Below, piece by piece: positions 7,297 through 51,230 of a stretch of 64,000 nt of DNA. The notes below the pieces were generated by a model. It did no database searches, had not been told where the DNA came from, and saw only the letters and a list, made by a program, of their open reading frames with translations. Numbering within the stretch: the first letter of the stretch is position 1; the number at the start of each line of letters is the position of its first letter. The stretch is from an uncultured Prevotella sp. (lineage in GTDB: Bacteria; Bacteroidota; Bacteroidia; Bacteroidales; Bacteroidaceae), in contig CAJOPT010000128.1 of assembly GCA_905236455.1 (NCBI GenBank), positions 62,001 through 126,000 of the forward strand. The letters run 5' to 3'. A program made the position numbers and the translations under genes.

Positions 7297-10200
7297 TCAG
7301 AATCCTTCTAACTCGTAATATTCATCCTCAATATTGACATCTTGGGATTGAGGCTTCTTGGTATTATTGTTATCTATGCCAAAATCATCGAAGTAAATCT
7401 CAGTGTCATCAGTAGGTTGCTCTTGTACATTTGTACCGGGCTCGTCAGGTATCGTAATCGTCGGATCCTGTGGGGCAGTCTGCTGTTTCTCCTCCGGGAC
7501 TACATAGGTCCCCTCAACCTCTTCATTTACTATTGTCGCAGGCTCATCGATAGGGATGTCAGTGACTTGCTCATCAACAGGACTGATGTTCGCAGGCTCA
7601 TCGGCAGGGATGTCGGTGACTTGCTCGTCAACAGGAATGATGTTCGCAGGCTCATCAACAGGAATGATGTTCGCAGGCTCATCAACAGGAATGTCGGTGA
7701 CTTGCTCATTAGTAGGAATCTCCTCCTTTCTCTGTGGTTCTGAAGGGGTTTCTTGAACCGGTTCCTTGTCCTTGGAAATATCTTTCTCCGGATCTATCTT
7801 ATCTGGAGCATCTGTCGTTTGCGGCTCTTCAATGATTTCCTTGGTTGCGTCTTTCTCAGAAGCTTCTGTAGGAATCTCAGTAGTGACTTCTTCTTCCTTA
7901 GGAGTTACTGGTTCTTCTGTAGGAATGTCGAATCCCGCATCTTGAATAGACTCGTCTTGTTGTATAACGTCTATATCCTCTTTGGTAGGAGAAGCACTTT
8001 CTATTTCCTCCTTGATGTCACGCTCACGTGGAGTAGCCACCTCTGCAGGTTCCGACAAAAGATATCTTTGTGTTATCTTTAGAGGAACATAGTTTTCTGA
8101 ATAGAAGTCATCATAGTCCTGATAGCTAAACCGTGTTCTTAAAAGAGCATGGTTCTGGTCACTGATTATAATACCCTTGATTTGCTTGTCTTGGAGAATT
8201 GTGTTGTTTGTCCCGTCAAGCTGACGTGCATATTGGAATGCTTCATCATAGCTTCTGAAACCACTGAACTGCATCTCATGCAGGTCTCCAACTTCTTCTA
8301 TGTTTATTTCAAAGTTTCGCACTACAAAGTTTGTGAAGTTAAACTTTGCCATTTCAAAGAGCAGTTTGTTCTCAGAGATAGAGTCTGGGTGATAGACAAG
8401 TATGAACTTGTAATCTCCAAGGCGCTCCGCAGAAAACACTTGTGTCTTGATACTGTCACTGTCGTTGAGTACGGCAGATCTTCGTGACCATACATCGTCA
8501 AGGTCGAACTTGCCCCCATGCAGTCGTTTGCCGGCATTCACACCGTTGACAATCATACCTGCCATCTCGCTGATACGGCTTTGTGGGTATTTCTCCACAA
8601 CCTCTTTCATTGCCTTGACACAACTCTCGACATCACCGTCATTGAGCTTGCTTAGTCCGCCAATAAACAGGAACTTGTCACGGTTTGCACCCAATTGGAA
8701 CCTTGTGTCGGAAATGTGTACATTACCGGCAACCTCGTTATATCTGTTCTTCTTGAATGCCTCGTAAGTAGCAGCATACAAAGAGTCTTCTATTTGTATG
8801 CCGAATTTCGAGTTCTCCTTGAAGTACGGGTCTGTTAGGAGTGTAGTCCACTGACTTTCTGGGAACTTCTCTTTTAGCTTGTCAATGTATGAGTCTGCTA
8901 TATTTGGCTCATTCTTACGTGAATATAACAGGAACAGATGATAATATACATCATCCATTTTCTCGTAGTCTGGATAATTGTCTGTAAGCCGTCTCAGATG
9001 TTTCTCACTGAGCGGTATATTGTCGAGCTGATCCTTGAATATAACACCGGCATGGTGAAGTCCGTCTGTCAGTATCAGGTTACTTGCGGCAAGCTGCTCT
9101 TCTGTGAAAGGAATCTGCGCCAGATAGTATTCACGTTTGTGTGGGTCGTTTTGGGCACTATCGGCTATTTGTTCGAGAGAGTCTCGTTTAAGCTCTTCTC
9201 TCATGATGGAGTCACGTTGCTCTTCTGTAAGTTCTTCTCCAGCGTCAGAGCCAATATTGCCTACAACGGTTTTGTTTGCTCGTTGCCAGTTGTCAGCATT
9301 CTCGCGTTGTCCCCATTGTTTCTGGAATGTAGCTTTACCTTGGTTTACCGCCATCTGATTATAGAAATACCAGATGCTGCTTTGCTGTCCACCTGTTTGT
9401 GCTGATGCCGTATTAGACTGCTCGCTTTTACCCGAGATATTCATGTCAAGACCATTGTTGCCCTGTTGTTTGGCAGCTTCAGCCTCAGCTTGTTTCTTAC
9501 GCTCTTCTTTCTCTTTCTTCTTTAGAGCTTCTATCACACGGTCAATGGCAGCATTTCTCTCTTCCTCAGGCATTTTAGCCAAGAGCTGGAGGGAGTCCTG
9601 TAAATGAATGGCGTCGGTAAAAGGAACAAGTTCGTCAAGAATCTTTGAGCGGTCGGATAGTTGCTGGTAGTCTTTTCTGTCTTTGTCTAACAAACCGATA
9701 GCTTCGCCATAGCAACGTCGGGCATCACCGAATCTCTCCATCTTCCAGTACAAGTCACCAAGGTGTAAAAGTAGCACACCTTTCTCTATGCCGTTGCGTG
9801 TCGCTTTCTCATTTCCCATCTCGTAGGCAGAGATGGCTTTCATTGTGTCTCTTTCTGCCAGGTAAATGTTACCCATGGCATAATACACTTGGTCAAGGTA
9901 GTCTTTGTTGTTGTCGGATGCAGCCATGCGCTTTAGCTTGCCGATCATTTGTTTAGCATGACCGCCAGCCATGACCTCTGTCATGGCAATACGCGCATTG
10001 AACTCCAGTTCATATGACGGATTTTGGTGTATTACTTTCTTGAAAGCCTGATATGCTTCCTGCTTGTGCCCTAAGGCTGCTTGCAGCTGTCCCATAAGAT
10101 ACCATTCACGGGCTTTTTGCTTGCGTCTCATCTCATGTTTGATGACTTTACGCAGATAGGGGATAGCTTTGTCAAACTCACCGGTATGGATATAGTAATC

Positions 10201-43652: not shown

Positions 43653-44942
43653 TTATTCTTCAATATTGTAAAGGAAATCGTTATAGGGATATTTTTGTAC
43701 GTGTAGCTCGCGTACTTTCTTATAAAGTATCTTGCGGAACTCTTCTATGTTTTCTCTCTCGAGAGCGGAGATGAACAGACAATTGTCGTTGAGCTTTGCC
43801 ATCCAGGTTCTTTTGAGTTCCTCAAGGGTGACATTCTCCTTTGTGGCAGGAGTAAGGTCATCGGCTTCTTTCTCAACCCATGTGTAACCGTCAATCTTGT
43901 TGAAAACAATCATTGAAGGCTTGTCGGCACAGCCTAAGTCTGCCAGTGTCTTTTCCACAACAGAGATCTGCTCCTCAAAATCAGGATGGGATATATCTAC
44001 CACATGCAACAGAAGGTCGGCCTCGCGAACCTCATCAAGGGTAGACTTAAACGACTCTACCAGGTCGGTGGGTAGCTTGCGGATGAAACCAACGGTGTCG
44101 GCAAGCAGGAACGGGAGGTTCTCAATGGTGACCTTCCTTACTGTGGTGTCGAGAGTGGCAAAGAGCTTGTTCTCCGCAAACACCTCACTCTTGGAAAGAA
44201 GGTTCATGATCGTTGACTTGCCGACATTAGTGTAGCCGACTAACGCAACGCGGATGAGCCTTCCACGGTTCTTGCGCTGGGTGGTCTTCTGCTTGTCAAT
44301 CTCTGCAAGACGTTGCTTTAGTAGGGTGATACGCTGGAGAATGATACGACGGTCCATCTCCAACTGTGTCTCTCCAGGACCACGTAAGCCTACTGAGCCT
44401 TTGCCTCCGCCACTACCGGAGCCTCCACCTTGTCTCTCAAGGTGTGTCCACAGACGTTGAAGGCGCGGAAGCATATATCTGTATTGTGCCAGCTCTACCT
44501 GTGTCTTGGCATTGGCGGTCTGAGCGCGCATGGCAAAGATGTCGAGAATGAGCGATGTACGGTCGAGTATCTTTACTTTCAGCTCATTCTCTATATTGCG
44601 GATCTGCTTGGCTGTAAGCTCATCATCGAAAATGACCATTCCCACAGGACTGTTCTCTGGAGTGAGCTCTATGCCATCTGCCTCGTATTGCTCCGCCATG
44701 TCCTCACGCATCTTGATGAAGTCTCTTATCTCATCCAGCTTTCCCTTTCCTACGTATGTTACGGAACTGGGACCGCTGATGCGTTGAGTAAAACGCTTTA
44801 TTGTCACGGCACCGGCAGTATCGGCAAGAAATTCCAGCTCGTCAAGGTATTCCTTTGTCTTGCTCTCGTCCTGTTGCTTGGTGATTAAACCAACAAGGAC
44901 GGCCGTCTCGGCCTTGACTTCGGAAATTACAAATTCTTTCAT
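43653..44942 (-). CDS. hflX: GTPase HflX
   Basis: ARRAQTANAK-type region, GPGETQLEMDRR, ALVGYTNVGKSTIMN, FADTVGFIRKLP-type motif. Confidence 0.95.
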   Translation of the reverse strand: MKEFVISEVKAETAVLVGLITKQQDESKTKEYLDELEFLADTAGAVTIKRFTQRISGPSSVTYVGKGKLDEIRDFIKMREDMAEQYEADGIELTPENSPVGMVIFDDELTAKQIRNIENELKVKILDRTSLILDIFAMRAQTANAKTQVELAQYRYMLPRLQRLWTHLERQGGGSGSGGGKGSVGLRGPGETQLEMDRRIILQRITLLKQRLAEIDKQKTTQRKNRGRLIRVALVGYTNVGKSTIMNLLSKSEVFAENKLFATLDTTVRKVTIENLPFLLADTVGFIRKLPTDLVESFKSTLDEVREADLLLHVVDISHPDFEEQISVVEKTLADLGCADKPSMIVFNKIDGYTWVEKEADDLTPATKENVTLEELKRTWMAKLNDNCLFISALERENIEEFRKILYKKVRELHVQKYPYNDFLYNIEE

Positions 44943-45193
44943 CTAATAGTATTGAATAGTATAATCTTTGCAAAGGTACGAGTAAATGAGCACAATACAA
45001 AATAAAAAGTCATTTTTATTTTTATTGTTGAATGGAAGTACCTTCTTCAAAGGTAAATAAAATTTCGGAGATTATAGGGGCAGTCGAGATAAAAATGTGA
45101 ACAAATTACAAAAATTAGTAATCAAATCGCTTTTCTAATTCAAATAAATTTCATACTTTTGTGGAAAACTTCTAAATTGTAATGCATAACACA

Positions 45194-47656: not shown

Positions 47657-47698
47657 AGAATTAAGGGTTATCGCTAATCGGCGATAACCCTTAATTCT
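47657..47698. terminator. Perfect 18-bp inverted repeat between convergent genes, probable terminator
   Basis: AGAATTAAGGGTTATCGC-taatcg-GCGATAACCCTTAATTCT; no strong U-tract. Confidence 0.6.
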
Positions 47699-48308
47699 AA
47701 TCTTTAACCTCTAACCTCATCATGCGTCTCCATTTGAAGTACCCCATTACGGCAATGACAACGTATAGCGCGTATAATGAGGCCTTGAAGGGTATATCCT
47801 TATAGAAGTAGAGTACGCATGTGACAACGTCTACGGCAATCCAGATGAACCATTGCTCCAGATATTTGTGTGCCAGTGCCCAGATTCCTACGATGCTCAG
47901 TGCAGTGGTGAAACTGTCGGCAACAGGTACTCGTGAGTCTGTATATGTTACCAGCAGCCACCAGATCACTCCCCAGATGATGGCAGTGACAATGAGCCAT
48001 GGGAGTATGAGGCTCCGCTTGAAGTGTGTGATGGGAAGGACGGCGCTTTCCTTTTCGTCAGACGTTCCAGTCTTCCTGTTGCTCCGTGTCCATTTCACGA
48101 ATCCGTATACCGTCACGGCGATATAGTAGAATTCCATGCCGCAGTCAGCGTACAACCCTTTTTGGTAGTATAGCACAATACCTAAGGCTTGCATCATGAA
48201 TCCTGCCAGCCACATCCAGTGGCTGGCACGGTACTCAAGCAGGATATATGCCAGCCCCAAGACTGTGGTGGTGATGTCTAACCAATGGCTCAGAAGAAAT
48301 TCCATCAT
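47697..48308 (-). CDS. pnuT: PnuC/PnuT family transporter, inferred thiamine transporter
   Basis: PnuC family TM pattern (LGLAYILLEYRASHWMW, GFVKWTR); 12 nt after a TPP-riboswitch-controlled TonB receptor. Confidence 0.82.
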   Translation of the reverse strand: MMEFLLSHWLDITTTVLGLAYILLEYRASHWMWLAGFMMQALGIVLYYQKGLYADCGMEFYYIAVTVYGFVKWTRSNRKTGTSDEKESAVLPITHFKRSLILPWLIVTAIIWGVIWWLLVTYTDSRVPVADSFTTALSIVGIWALAHKYLEQWFIWIAVDVVTCVLYFYKDIPFKASLYALYVVIAVMGYFKWRRMMRLEVKD

Positions 48309-48320
48309 CGTCGTGGTATC

Positions 48321-50747
48321 TTAGAATTTAAGCGTGAGACTTGCCATCGTGGTGAATCCGGCCATGGGGATGAATCCTATCTGATAGTAGCGGTTGTCGG
48401 GCGTATGACCATAGCTTTCTGCCACGGCAGAGTATACCCATCCGCTGGCTGCATAATGGCGGTTGAACAAGTTGTTGAAGTTCAGTCCTATAGCAACTTC
48501 CTTCAAAGGACAAACCTTTGTAACCTTGGTGGTATAGCTCAGGGCAAGGTCTGACTGAGAGTAGCAGGGGAGGGAGCGGTCTGCGTTCTCGGTGTTGTCA
48601 AGATACTGTCGGCTGACGAAGTTGGTATGCCATACAGCCTGCCAGCCATTGTAGTGCAGGTTGGCGAAGCCATTGAGAATCATCGATGGCGAGAATGCCA
48701 AAGTGGAGTTGTCATAGTGTATCTGCCTCAGCTCATCACCGTTGCCGTCGCAGTGGTATGTCGCTGCGTCAGGGTTGCCTTCCCAGTCGTCCCAGTCTTC
48801 CACCATCTCGTCGAAATCCTTAATCTTGTTCTTGCTTAGGGCTGCATTACCCTCAAGTGTCAGCCATGGAGTAACGTTCCATCCGGCAGTCAGCTCGATA
48901 CCCATGCGGTAGGAGTCCTTGATGTTGGTGGTCAGCGCCTCACCAATGTCACTCACGGCACCTGTCTGCACAAACTGGTCGGTATAATCCATATAATAGA
49001 GGTTCACACCTGCGCGCCAGTTGCTGCCAGTGAACTGATAGCCTACCTCATAGTCAAGCAGTGACTCGGCTGTCGGTGCGGGGTAGTTGCCATTGTCTGT
49101 GAAGTTATTGCGCTCAGGTTCGCGATGGCTCAGTGCGGCTGAACCGTAGAAGCGGTGACCGCCTTGACTGAAGCTGAATCCTGCCTTAGGATTGAAGAAG
49201 TCATAAGTCTTGTCGATGTCAAGGAAATGCTTGTCATAAAGATATGTCTCCTTGTTGTATATGAACTTATCATTGTATCCGTCGGTCGTATATCCCACAT
49301 GGCGGTACTGCATGTCGGCGAAAATGCTCCATGCCGGTGTTATGGAGTATGATGCCTTTACGTAGGCGCTGGCGTCAAGCTTCTTCGCGTCGGAGTCGTA
49401 ATATTTGTAGTCTCCTTTTGCAAGTAACAGGTTTCTCAGCTGCTCATTAGAGATATAGGTCGCGTATCCAAAGTGGTTGCCTTTGAAGTTCTGGAAGTTT
49501 AATCCTCCTACGATGTCCCATGTGTCATCCTTGTAGTTAAGGCTCCATACTGCACCGTATGAGTCTTGCTTTAGTCCCTTCTTGCGTACCCAGTCGGTAC
49601 GTTTCACGCCGTCAACGGCATCATAGCCGAACTCGGCATTTGGAAGTCCTATCTTTTTTATCTTGTTGTTGGGACGGAACTCATTGTAATAGCCATAGCC
49701 GTGAGTATAATGGAGCGATGCCGCAGTGTTCCAATGTTCGTTGATGGTCCATGCGCCGGACAAGATGCTGCGGTTCTGCCAGAAATTGTCAGTGGTCTTG
49801 TCCCAATAACTGCCATCGGCAAACTTATAGCGTTGTGTGTGCCAGCCGTTATTGTCAATGATGAAGGCCTCATAGAGACTGTTGAACTGTCCGAAGCCGG
49901 CGTCATACAGGTCTTTGTATGTCTTTATGCCTGTTTTCTCGCCGTATGTGCCGTCCATGATACTCTGGTCGTCGTTGCCTGCAGTGACACCGTTCCATGC
50001 CTGACCAGTCTTCTCAAAGTTACCGAAGTTCTTGTAGCGAAGCGTAAACTTGTTGCCAAGCCAGGTGAGACCACCGTAGTAGCTTCCAGAACGACCACTG
50101 GTACCATGTATGAAACCGTCGGTGTTGGTCTCATGGTATGCACCGTCAAAAATGAGGTGGTTCCATAGCAGTCCCGTAGAGAAGCTGCCACCAAGGTTAT
50201 AGGTGTTGTATGAACCGTAGGAGGCGGAGAACTCTGCCGTGGGAACGTCTGAAGGTACCTTAGATACTAATGCCACCGTACCGCCAAAGGCTCCGTCGCC
50301 ATTCGTTGAGGTTCCCACACCACGTTGTATCTGTACACTTCCCAGCAACGAGGCATAGCTGTTCATGTTAGCCCAGAACACGCACTGGTCTTCTGGTGAG
50401 TTCATAGGCACTCCGTCAAGGGTCACGTTGATACGTGAGTCACCGGCTCCGCGGATGCGCATGTATGTCGTGCCGCTACCCACGCCGTTCTCACTCCATG
50501 CCAGTACACCGGGTGTCTGTGAGAACAGGAACGGCAGTTCCTTACCGGTCTTGGAAAACTCTGAGAGTTCTTGCTTCTTTACACTTGCCACGGCGAATGG
50601 TGCGTTCTTGGGAACCCATACACCTTTTACCACTACTTCCTGCATTTGTTCCATGCGAAGCGAGTCATTGTCGTTGCCTGTTTTCATTGAACCATAGGCA
50701 GCTCCTGTCATCAGCAGGACAGCCGTCATAACTACAATCTTTTTCAT
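48321..50747 (-). CDS. TonB-dependent outer membrane receptor, inferred thiamine/TPP uptake
   Basis: Plug domain (LPFLFSQTPGVLAWSENGVGSGTTYMRIRGAGDSRINVTLDGVPMNSPE) and barrel; TPP riboswitch in leader. Confidence 0.9.
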   Translation of the reverse strand: MKKIVVMTAVLLMTGAAYGSMKTGNDNDSLRMEQMQEVVVKGVWVPKNAPFAVASVKKQELSEFSKTGKELPFLFSQTPGVLAWSENGVGSGTTYMRIRGAGDSRINVTLDGVPMNSPEDQCVFWANMNSYASLLGSVQIQRGVGTSTNGDGAFGGTVALVSKVPSDVPTAEFSASYGSYNTYNLGGSFSTGLLWNHLIFDGAYHETNTDGFIHGTSGRSGSYYGGLTWLGNKFTLRYKNFGNFEKTGQAWNGVTAGNDDQSIMDGTYGEKTGIKTYKDLYDAGFGQFNSLYEAFIIDNNGWHTQRYKFADGSYWDKTTDNFWQNRSILSGAWTINEHWNTAASLHYTHGYGYYNEFRPNNKIKKIGLPNAEFGYDAVDGVKRTDWVRKKGLKQDSYGAVWSLNYKDDTWDIVGGLNFQNFKGNHFGYATYISNEQLRNLLLAKGDYKYYDSDAKKLDASAYVKASYSITPAWSIFADMQYRHVGYTTDGYNDKFIYNKETYLYDKHFLDIDKTYDFFNPKAGFSFSQGGHRFYGSAALSHREPERNNFTDNGNYPAPTAESLLDYEVGYQFTGSNWRAGVNLYYMDYTDQFVQTGAVSDIGEALTTNIKDSYRMGIELTAGWNVTPWLTLEGNAALSKNKIKDFDEMVEDWDDWEGNPDAATYHCDGNGDELRQIHYDNSTLAFSPSMILNGFANLHYNGWQAVWHTNFVSRQYLDNTENADRSLPCYSQSDLALSYTTKVTKVCPLKEVAIGLNFNNLFNRHYAASGWVYSAVAESYGHTPDNRYYQIGFIPMAGFTTMASLTLKF

Positions 50748-50800
50748 TGAATACCTTTTTTAAAATAATACATAAAAAGGGGCATTTTCTCGTTTAACCT

Positions 50801-50874
50801 TTCCCTACGTCGGCATTACCCGCATCAGGTTCGAGGGTATCATCTCAGCCACCAACTGGCGGCACCCCTTGGAA
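50801..50874 (-). promoter_or_regulatory. TPP (THI element) riboswitch
   Basis: Minus strand TTCCAAGGGGTGCC...GGCTGAGATGATACCC...GAACCTGATGCGGGTAATGCCGACGTAGGGAA; paired P1 ends TTCC/GGAA. Confidence 0.95.
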
Positions 50875-50882
50875 ACTCGCTG

Positions 50883-50914
50883 CAAAGGTACGCATAAGCG
50901 AGGACAAAACCAAA
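50883..50914 (-). promoter_or_regulatory. Promoter of the riboswitch operon: TTTG-N20-TACCTTTG
   Basis: Minus strand TTTG (50914-50911), N20, TACCTTTG (50890-50883); predicted start just upstream of the aptamer. Confidence 0.65.
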
Positions 50915-51080
50915 AGAAAAATCCATTTTTTCTTTTGCTTTGTCGAGCGGGAGTACTTTCGACAAAGTCAGAGGTACGCATAAGCGAGGACAAAACCAAA
51001 AGAAAAATCCATTTTTTCTTTTGCTTTGTCGAGCGGGAGTACTTTCGACAAAGTCAAAGGTACGCATAAGCGAGGACAAA
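50887..51080. repeat. 86-bp tandem repeat, 2.26 copies (ABABA organisation)
   Basis: GGTACGCATAAGCGAGGACAAA... starts at 50887, 50973 and 51059; the two full copies differ at one base. Confidence 0.97.
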
Positions 51081-51230
51081 TATAATGATTGACAAACTGT
51101 CATTATTGCTGACAAGATGACAGACAAAGACCGGAGCTCAACTATTTTCTTTCTTGTTGTTTTCATTTTGGAATAACATTTGAAGTAAGGATGTTTAGAA
51201 AAACGAATAAAACAAGAAAGGAGACTAAAA

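Follow-up and report, generated by a model that had tools for sequence, protein, structure and literature searches.

The window analysed here, a stretch of 64,000 nucleotides from an uncultured Prevotella sp., carries on its minus strand a thiamine operon which consists of a TPP riboswitch aptamer, a gene for an OMthi-like TonB-dependent receptor and a gene for a PnuC/PnuT-like transporter (Table 1). The OMthi-pnuT arrangement with a TPP riboswitch is known from gut Bacteroidetes (PMC5613172). The operon of the window is like those in its riboswitch, receptor and PnuT-like gene, but here, and in some relatives, a repeat unit supplies the predicted promoter. The repeat directly adjoins the riboswitch as a tandem array (50883-51080), to which TRF assigned a period of 86, 2.3 copies and 98% matches, while the repeat search of the window found two full 86-nt copies, 99% identical to each other, and three occurrences of a 26-nt A box at a spacing of 86. 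The array described in the earlier note was thereby confirmed. An 86-bp tandem of this kind cannot be attributed to chance, and the near-identity of its two units indicates that the tandem step was recent; since the genome is a draft of 140 contigs, in which a 198-bp array could be mis-counted, the exact copy number is uncertain. No Rfam family matched the repeat at the gathering score. A protein-coding reading was rejected, given that the 149-aa ORF across the array has no Pfam match. Another tandem repeat of the window, of 27/54 bp and possibly protein-coding, is located at 7535-7709.

Table 1. Features of the thiamine operon, the tandem array and the single repeat unit within the window
Feature	Position	Strand	Evidence or remark
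hflX-like GTPase gene, predicted to be driven by the unit at 44971	43653..44942	-	ORF scan, 429 aa, TIGR03156 HflX
Single 77-bp unit, promoter region of the hflX-like gene	44971..45047	-	R1 93.5 bits
PnuC/PnuT-like transporter, second gene of the operon	47697..48308	-	PF04973 177.7 bits
TonB-dependent receptor, OMthi-like	48321..50747	-	Pfam Plug + TonB barrel; orthologues TPP-controlled
TPP riboswitch aptamer	50784..50879	-	Rfam RF00059, 58.3 bits vs gathering score 54.3
Promoter-proximal unit, 86 bp	50883..50968	-	Covariance model R1 88.2 bits, E 1e-19; own-genome relatives 84-86%
-7 box TACCTTTG, proximal, predicted active	50883..50890	-	Sequence; same-place box in 36 orthologues
Outer stem, unit 1	AAGGTAC 50885-50891 (holds -7 box) with GTACTTT 50953-50959	.	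RNAalifold consensus; covariation
Inner stem, unit 1	arms 50907-50921 + 50927-50941	.	93% complementary; family covariation
-33 box TTTG, N20 from proximal -7, within inner stem	50911..50914	-	CAAA on + strand
Second tandem unit, 99% identical, -7 box TACCTCTG	50969..51054	-	Repeat search, covariance model R1
-7 box TACCTCTG, middle	50969-50976	-	Sequence
Distal -7 box + spacer, 3' end of a truncated/diverged third unit	51055..51080	-	No TTTG at N19-21
-7 box TACCTTTG, distal	51055-51062	-	Sequence

Read on the minus strand, the proximal copy has the arrangement TTTG-N20-TACCTTTG. The middle box shows the same spacing but its -7 is damaged (CTCTG), and upstream of the distal box TTTG was seen at no other spacing than N14 and N30. 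The three boxes, the proximal N20 spacing and the lack of a distal TTTG at N19-21 are as the earlier note gave them. Its division of the array into two modules, A and B, had to be abandoned, because one unit runs from a -7 box to the next -7 box, and what had been called A is the -7 box plus spacer closing each unit. The distal piece gave only a weak match to the covariance model described below (51055-51150, 12 bits). The length of 86 bp of the window unit is due to 3 additional loop bases and a small junction hairpin (TTTGAC-TTT-GTCGAAA).

The possibility that the repeat is private to the thiamine locus was ruled out by searching its own genome, a step proposed beforehand that disclosed a genome-wide family absent from the original proposal. 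About 20 places were found by a BLAST-type search, and a covariance model (R1) built from 16 units gave 99 matches at E<1. At a threshold of at least 25 bits there were 86 units at 70 sites, 15 of which had more than one unit; R1 was trained on this genome and under-counts distant subfamilies. Apart from the array, the window has one further unit, at 44971-45047, in front of the hflX-like gene. Among the 299 genomes sampled from the genus (rumen Prevotella), 250 had relatives of the unit, and some had none. Unit length was about 64-86 bp, the typical unit being of 77 bp and reading, towards the gene, AAGAAGGTACTTNCGYTCG-stem-loop-stem-GCTC(A/G)CTTAATCGTACCTTTG.

Units of this family are imperfect palindromes, whose outer arm contains the -7 box and whose inner arm contains the -33 box. 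In 43 distinct pairs of inner arms, located by sequence anchors and not by a structure-fitted alignment, 6.30 of 8 positions formed Watson-Crick pairs versus 4.60 with partners shuffled (sd 0.16, maximum 5.19 in 5000 shuffles; slid registers at most 4.31), and outer arms had 5.53 of 7 pairs versus 4.63 (sd 0.11, maximum 5.13), figures which partly reflect inheritance within subfamilies, every subfamily being one independent compensatory change. Outer-arm covariation was weaker in G027 alone (5.62 versus 5.32). The outer arms differ between subfamilies but match each other within each one: GGTAC/GTACC, GTTAC/GTAAC, AAATTTC/GAAATTT, AAAATCT/AGATTTT, GATGATGC/GCATCAT and AAGATAA/TTATCTT. At thiamine promoters the outer arm likewise tracks the local -7 variant, with GTAC, GTAG, GTAA and ATAG accompanied by GTAC, CTAC, TTAC and CTAT, respectively. 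Conserved unpaired motifs, GCTCG-like on both sides, lie between the arms. From 5' to 3', the folded unit is made up of an outer arm, an internal loop that is conserved and GCTCG-like, an A/T stem that covaries and is closed by a short loop, a second conserved loop, GCTC(A/G)CTTAATC, and the other outer arm. The palindrome may act as a cruciform, within single-stranded DNA or as a copying substrate. The RNA fold of the repeat is strong (z = -4.3) and this, together with the covariation, would suit an element working at the RNA level, namely a hairpin of a read-through transcript (terminator or processing site) standing beside promoters by happenstance. Such an explanation is highly improbable, since the unit lies upstream of its own predicted start site, its A/T-rich stem has neither a conserved GC stem nor a U-run, and the -7 box is within the stem.

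Sigma-ABfr promoters of Bacteroides have the elements TTTG and TAnnTTTG (PMC7366714). In the family, the sigma-ABfr -7 box (TANNTTTG) closes almost every unit, from a few to about 150 nt 5' of the start codon, and at most sites it coincides with the last 8 bases of the unit. TTTG was found at N19-21 upstream of the -7 in 111 of the 115 units ending in TANNTTTG (two species). The location of both boxes of the proximal thiamine copy inside the repeat stands, and TTTG-N19/20-TANNTTTG is kept family-wide. At 62 of 70 sites, the start of an ORF of at least 100 aa is no more than 350 nt from the unit; among the other sites, several coincide with the end of a contig. All ten downstream genes that were checked were core genes (pgk, dapA, aspartokinase, typA, uvrB, malic enzyme, ffh, metG, dnaB and hflX). 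The unit therefore matches the sigma-ABfr consensus fully (PMC7366714) and stands where a promoter is expected. Boxes and spacing are those of the known sigma-ABfr promoters (PMC7366714), although the ordinary ones stand outside any repeated palindrome. Every unit would carry a sigma-ABfr promoter in full, the 3' inner arm contributing the -33 TTTG and the 3' outer arm the -7 TANNTTTG, and, units being located at transcription-unit starts, the gene-adjacent one would set the transcription start. Two further forms were observed. A near-perfect symmetrical unit between divergent genes (G000:C2:13411-13491, L025) has a -7 box at either end and would represent a bidirectional promoter form. Four units (L017, L020, L126 and L149; G000 positions C92:7172, C41:1449, C90:9456 and C2:21527) have in common a 35-bp insert, AACCAACGGTCACTGTTTGCGAAGCAAGGGAAAGT, and a stretch similar to it lies 3' of a RAYT-like gene in L283.

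The history of the thiamine promoter was followed in orthologous receptor genes drawn from relatives and from named rumen Prevotella MAGs. TPP aptamers precede most of them, and a TANNTTTGC box lies just 5' of the aptamer in 36 of the 36 MAG orthologues inspected, most of which have no unit; the thiamine operons of the relatives likewise have this box just upstream of the aptamer. The comparison of copy number in this interval, which the earlier note had advised, gave 0 units in many species, one in G032, G022, L195, L221 and L227, two in L238, L247, L229 and L226, and three in G027 and G009/L206. Within 52 MAG loci, all matches at E<0.01 were at the thiamine promoter except L202:925. The window unit is only 74% identical to the G027 unit at the equivalent place, but 84-86% identical to units at other loci of the genome it belongs to. 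RUG12596 has three palindromic units upstream of its thiamine operon (L206/L097, about 314-585), two of them similar and the third with a GC-richer stem (TTTTGTCCGCTTAAGGACAAAA). The presence of -7 boxes in the orthologues together with the varying number of units indicates that the promoter position is ancestral and the units are lineage-specific, and that tandem growth happened several times. It had been proposed that a local duplication of two modules built or strengthened the thiamine promoter. The near-identity of the two units and the proximal -33 inside the repeat would agree with this, but the family is genome-wide, single units elsewhere hold a complete promoter, the orthologues have their -7 box with or without a unit, the second copy has a damaged -7 and the third has no -33. 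A promoter-building duplication is accordingly very unlikely. Since most orthologues have the -7 box and no unit, the repeat was not the creator of the thiamine promoter; rather, the unit would now supply the promoter of the TPP-riboswitch transcript.

Concerning the turnover of the family, units before unrelated genes at unlinked loci can be as much as 95-99% identical, for example those at C99:40272 (malic enzyme gene) and C97:11423 (uvrB). When units of two species were compared, 108 of 116 had their nearest neighbour at a different site within the same genome; 61 were expected, and 2000 shuffles of the labels gave no more than 83. The expanded subfamilies differ by species. Modules of the GTAAC type start right behind an older TATCTTTG or TAACTTTG box and close with their own (C41:18518, C24:16698, C96:23568), and AAATTTTG-type modules lie between a spacer and GTACCTTTG (C89:33797, C67:23117). 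The flanks at C101:29062, TCGGTTT and GCATTACCTTTG, correspond to the two sides of the 3' end of another subfamily, which indicates a unit nested within a unit. In addition, 30 of 98 sites have a -7-like box immediately 5' of the distal unit, versus 1-5 in control positions; this box could be a duplication or belong to an older unit. Of 35 G027 sites, only 6 stand before a gene with a unit in G000 as well. Near-identity at unrelated genes, nesting and tandems, and the species-differing occupancy of sites indicate that units have spread. Neither a constant terminal sequence nor a target duplication was demonstrated at the units, whose outer arms vary between subfamilies, unlike normal transposon ends. 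Orthologous sites yielded no clean pair of one empty and one occupied, since even the closest relatives, about 77% identical in clpB, are too distant for intergenic alignment.

In attention to these data, the array is probably a tandem duplication of one member of a palindrome family of rumen Prevotella that is dispersed, non-coding and promoter-carrying. The module appears to move between genes and to multiply on the spot, so that promoters throughout the genome are probably renewed or replaced by it. Units would spread between loci of one genome by inserting at or beside existing -7 boxes. Such an insertion would leave the older -7 box 5' of the unit, so that n units tend towards n+1 boxes, and units would multiply locally into tandem arrays, with recombination or slippage between box repeats as the probable mode. 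An alternative is that the units are a selected promoter class (a regulon), regulatory and not mobile. The palindrome and its conserved loops would then be recognised by a protein or by DNA topology, and copies would appear and be kept for the usefulness of a hairpin promoter. The strict promoter position, the core genes downstream, the conserved internal-loop motifs and the arms kept complementary are all consistent with it, as is the finding that 6 of 35 G027 sites precede a gene which also bears a unit in G000. However, the stems vary widely in sequence, unlike an operator, some genomes of the genus do without any unit, and the near-identical units before unrelated genes, the species-specific subfamilies and the nested and tandem units point to copying. 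We consider the regulon unlikely and retain the dispersed promoter-carrying palindrome as the explanation.

As for what might move the units, the genome of the window encodes a RAYT-like protein of 340 aa (C69:140-1162). Its match to Pfam Y1_Tnp, of 19.6 bits and below the cut-off of 23, was the pointer to the RAYT-like family, and its match to NCBIfam REP_Tyr_transpos (E 1.7e-11, 44 bits) is also below the cut-off of 80. Two units lie 187 bp downstream of this gene. The element count, for which at most 16 candidates per genome were scored and which is therefore capped at 16, had a median of 15 in genomes with a RAYT-like gene versus 5 in those without (299 genomes, p=6.6e-14, with no species-tree correction), and the association persisted in all four quartiles of clpB similarity to the genome of the window (p 4e-5 to 1e-3). 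DDE_Tnp_1, an unrelated transposase family used as control, showed no association with element number (p=0.15). The IS200-like transposase (Pfam Y1_Tnp) was rejected as correlate, having no clear relation to element number. The flanking of RAYT genes by units was also rejected, as units were found at 1 of 40 RAYT loci and at 1 of 40 shifted controls; in the first RAYT set they were at 3 of 25 loci. Exceptions occur in both directions, given that the complete genome G024 has 33 units and no RAYT, while G016 and G011 have a RAYT gene and no unit. Another RAYT group (L321, L322, L327 and L328) has conserved hairpins, CAAGCGGCAAAACCGCTTGG and ACGTCAGTTTTGCTGACG, directly 3' of its genes, which are probably its own cognate structures. 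For the missing enrichment, the hairpins of this second group and the exceptions both ways, the RAYT is a lead and not a conclusion. The element counts, which hold within the clpB strata, and the gene in the same genome make it possible, though doubtful, that a RAYT-like HUH transposase specific to Prevotella spreads the units as REPIN-like elements, the promoter being replicated along with the unit. Such a transposase would explain how the palindrome family dispersed and is not an alternative to that dispersal. Slightly more speculative is the stronger form, in which the palindromes are copied by a RAYT-like transposase of the genus into the -7 boxes of core-gene promoters, and a large part of the unit-bearing promoters of rumen Prevotella are replicating "promoter REPINs" with sigma boxes as arms.

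Matus-Garcia et al. (cited in PMC4596501 and PMC8049555) reportedly described in 2012 putative mobile promoters, which are short promoter-containing repeats up to 95-99% identical before non-homologous genes of one genome. The family shares with them a near-identical sequence of 50-100 bp before unrelated genes of one genome. It differs in that the promoter lies inside a covarying palindrome, in its tandem growth and nesting, and in that many subfamilies of one structural family occur across the genus. With REPIN/RAYT systems (PMC8049555; PMC3733652) it shares dispersed extragenic hairpins, subfamilies, alternative complementary stem residues and a RAYT-like correlate. In contrast, REPINs are mainly downstream of genes, whereas our units are at promoters, are 64-86 bp long with promoter boxes in their arms and are not adjacent to a RAYT gene. 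Inspection by eye revealed no GTAG/CGTC tag at either unit end; units end in TANNTTTG. As in MITEs, the units are non-coding, multi-copy and of a size within 50-1000 bp, but in place of constant terminal inverted repeats matching a parent transposon their outer arms differ between subfamilies. The BrickBuilt MITE of Porphyromonas gingivalis is made of 23-nt direct repeats with leader and tail (PMC4596501). Both are intergenic repeats of Bacteroidales with tandem internal units and promoter activity (predicted in our case), but the unit of 64-86 bp has no 23-nt minisatellite, its sequence is different, and BrickBuilt is not fixed at -7 boxes. In its working the family is like a mobile promoter, and it is similar to REPINs and to BrickBuilt, but as tested it lacks defining features of the latter two. 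No description of it was found in the open-access literature, a search that did not cover the 2012 mobile-promoter survey.

For annotation, the family explains assembly-breaking repeats at gene starts and advises caution against taking such arrays as locus-specific regulation. It has been suggested that REPINs and RAYTs might form a promoter system (PMC8049555), and the Prevotella palindromes, if our reading is true, would provide a one-case answer. If the units are both mobile and active in transcription, dozens of core genes in an abundant rumen genus would have promoters that turn over by the copying of one hairpin module and not by point mutation, and promoter rewiring could be measured there in a natural system.
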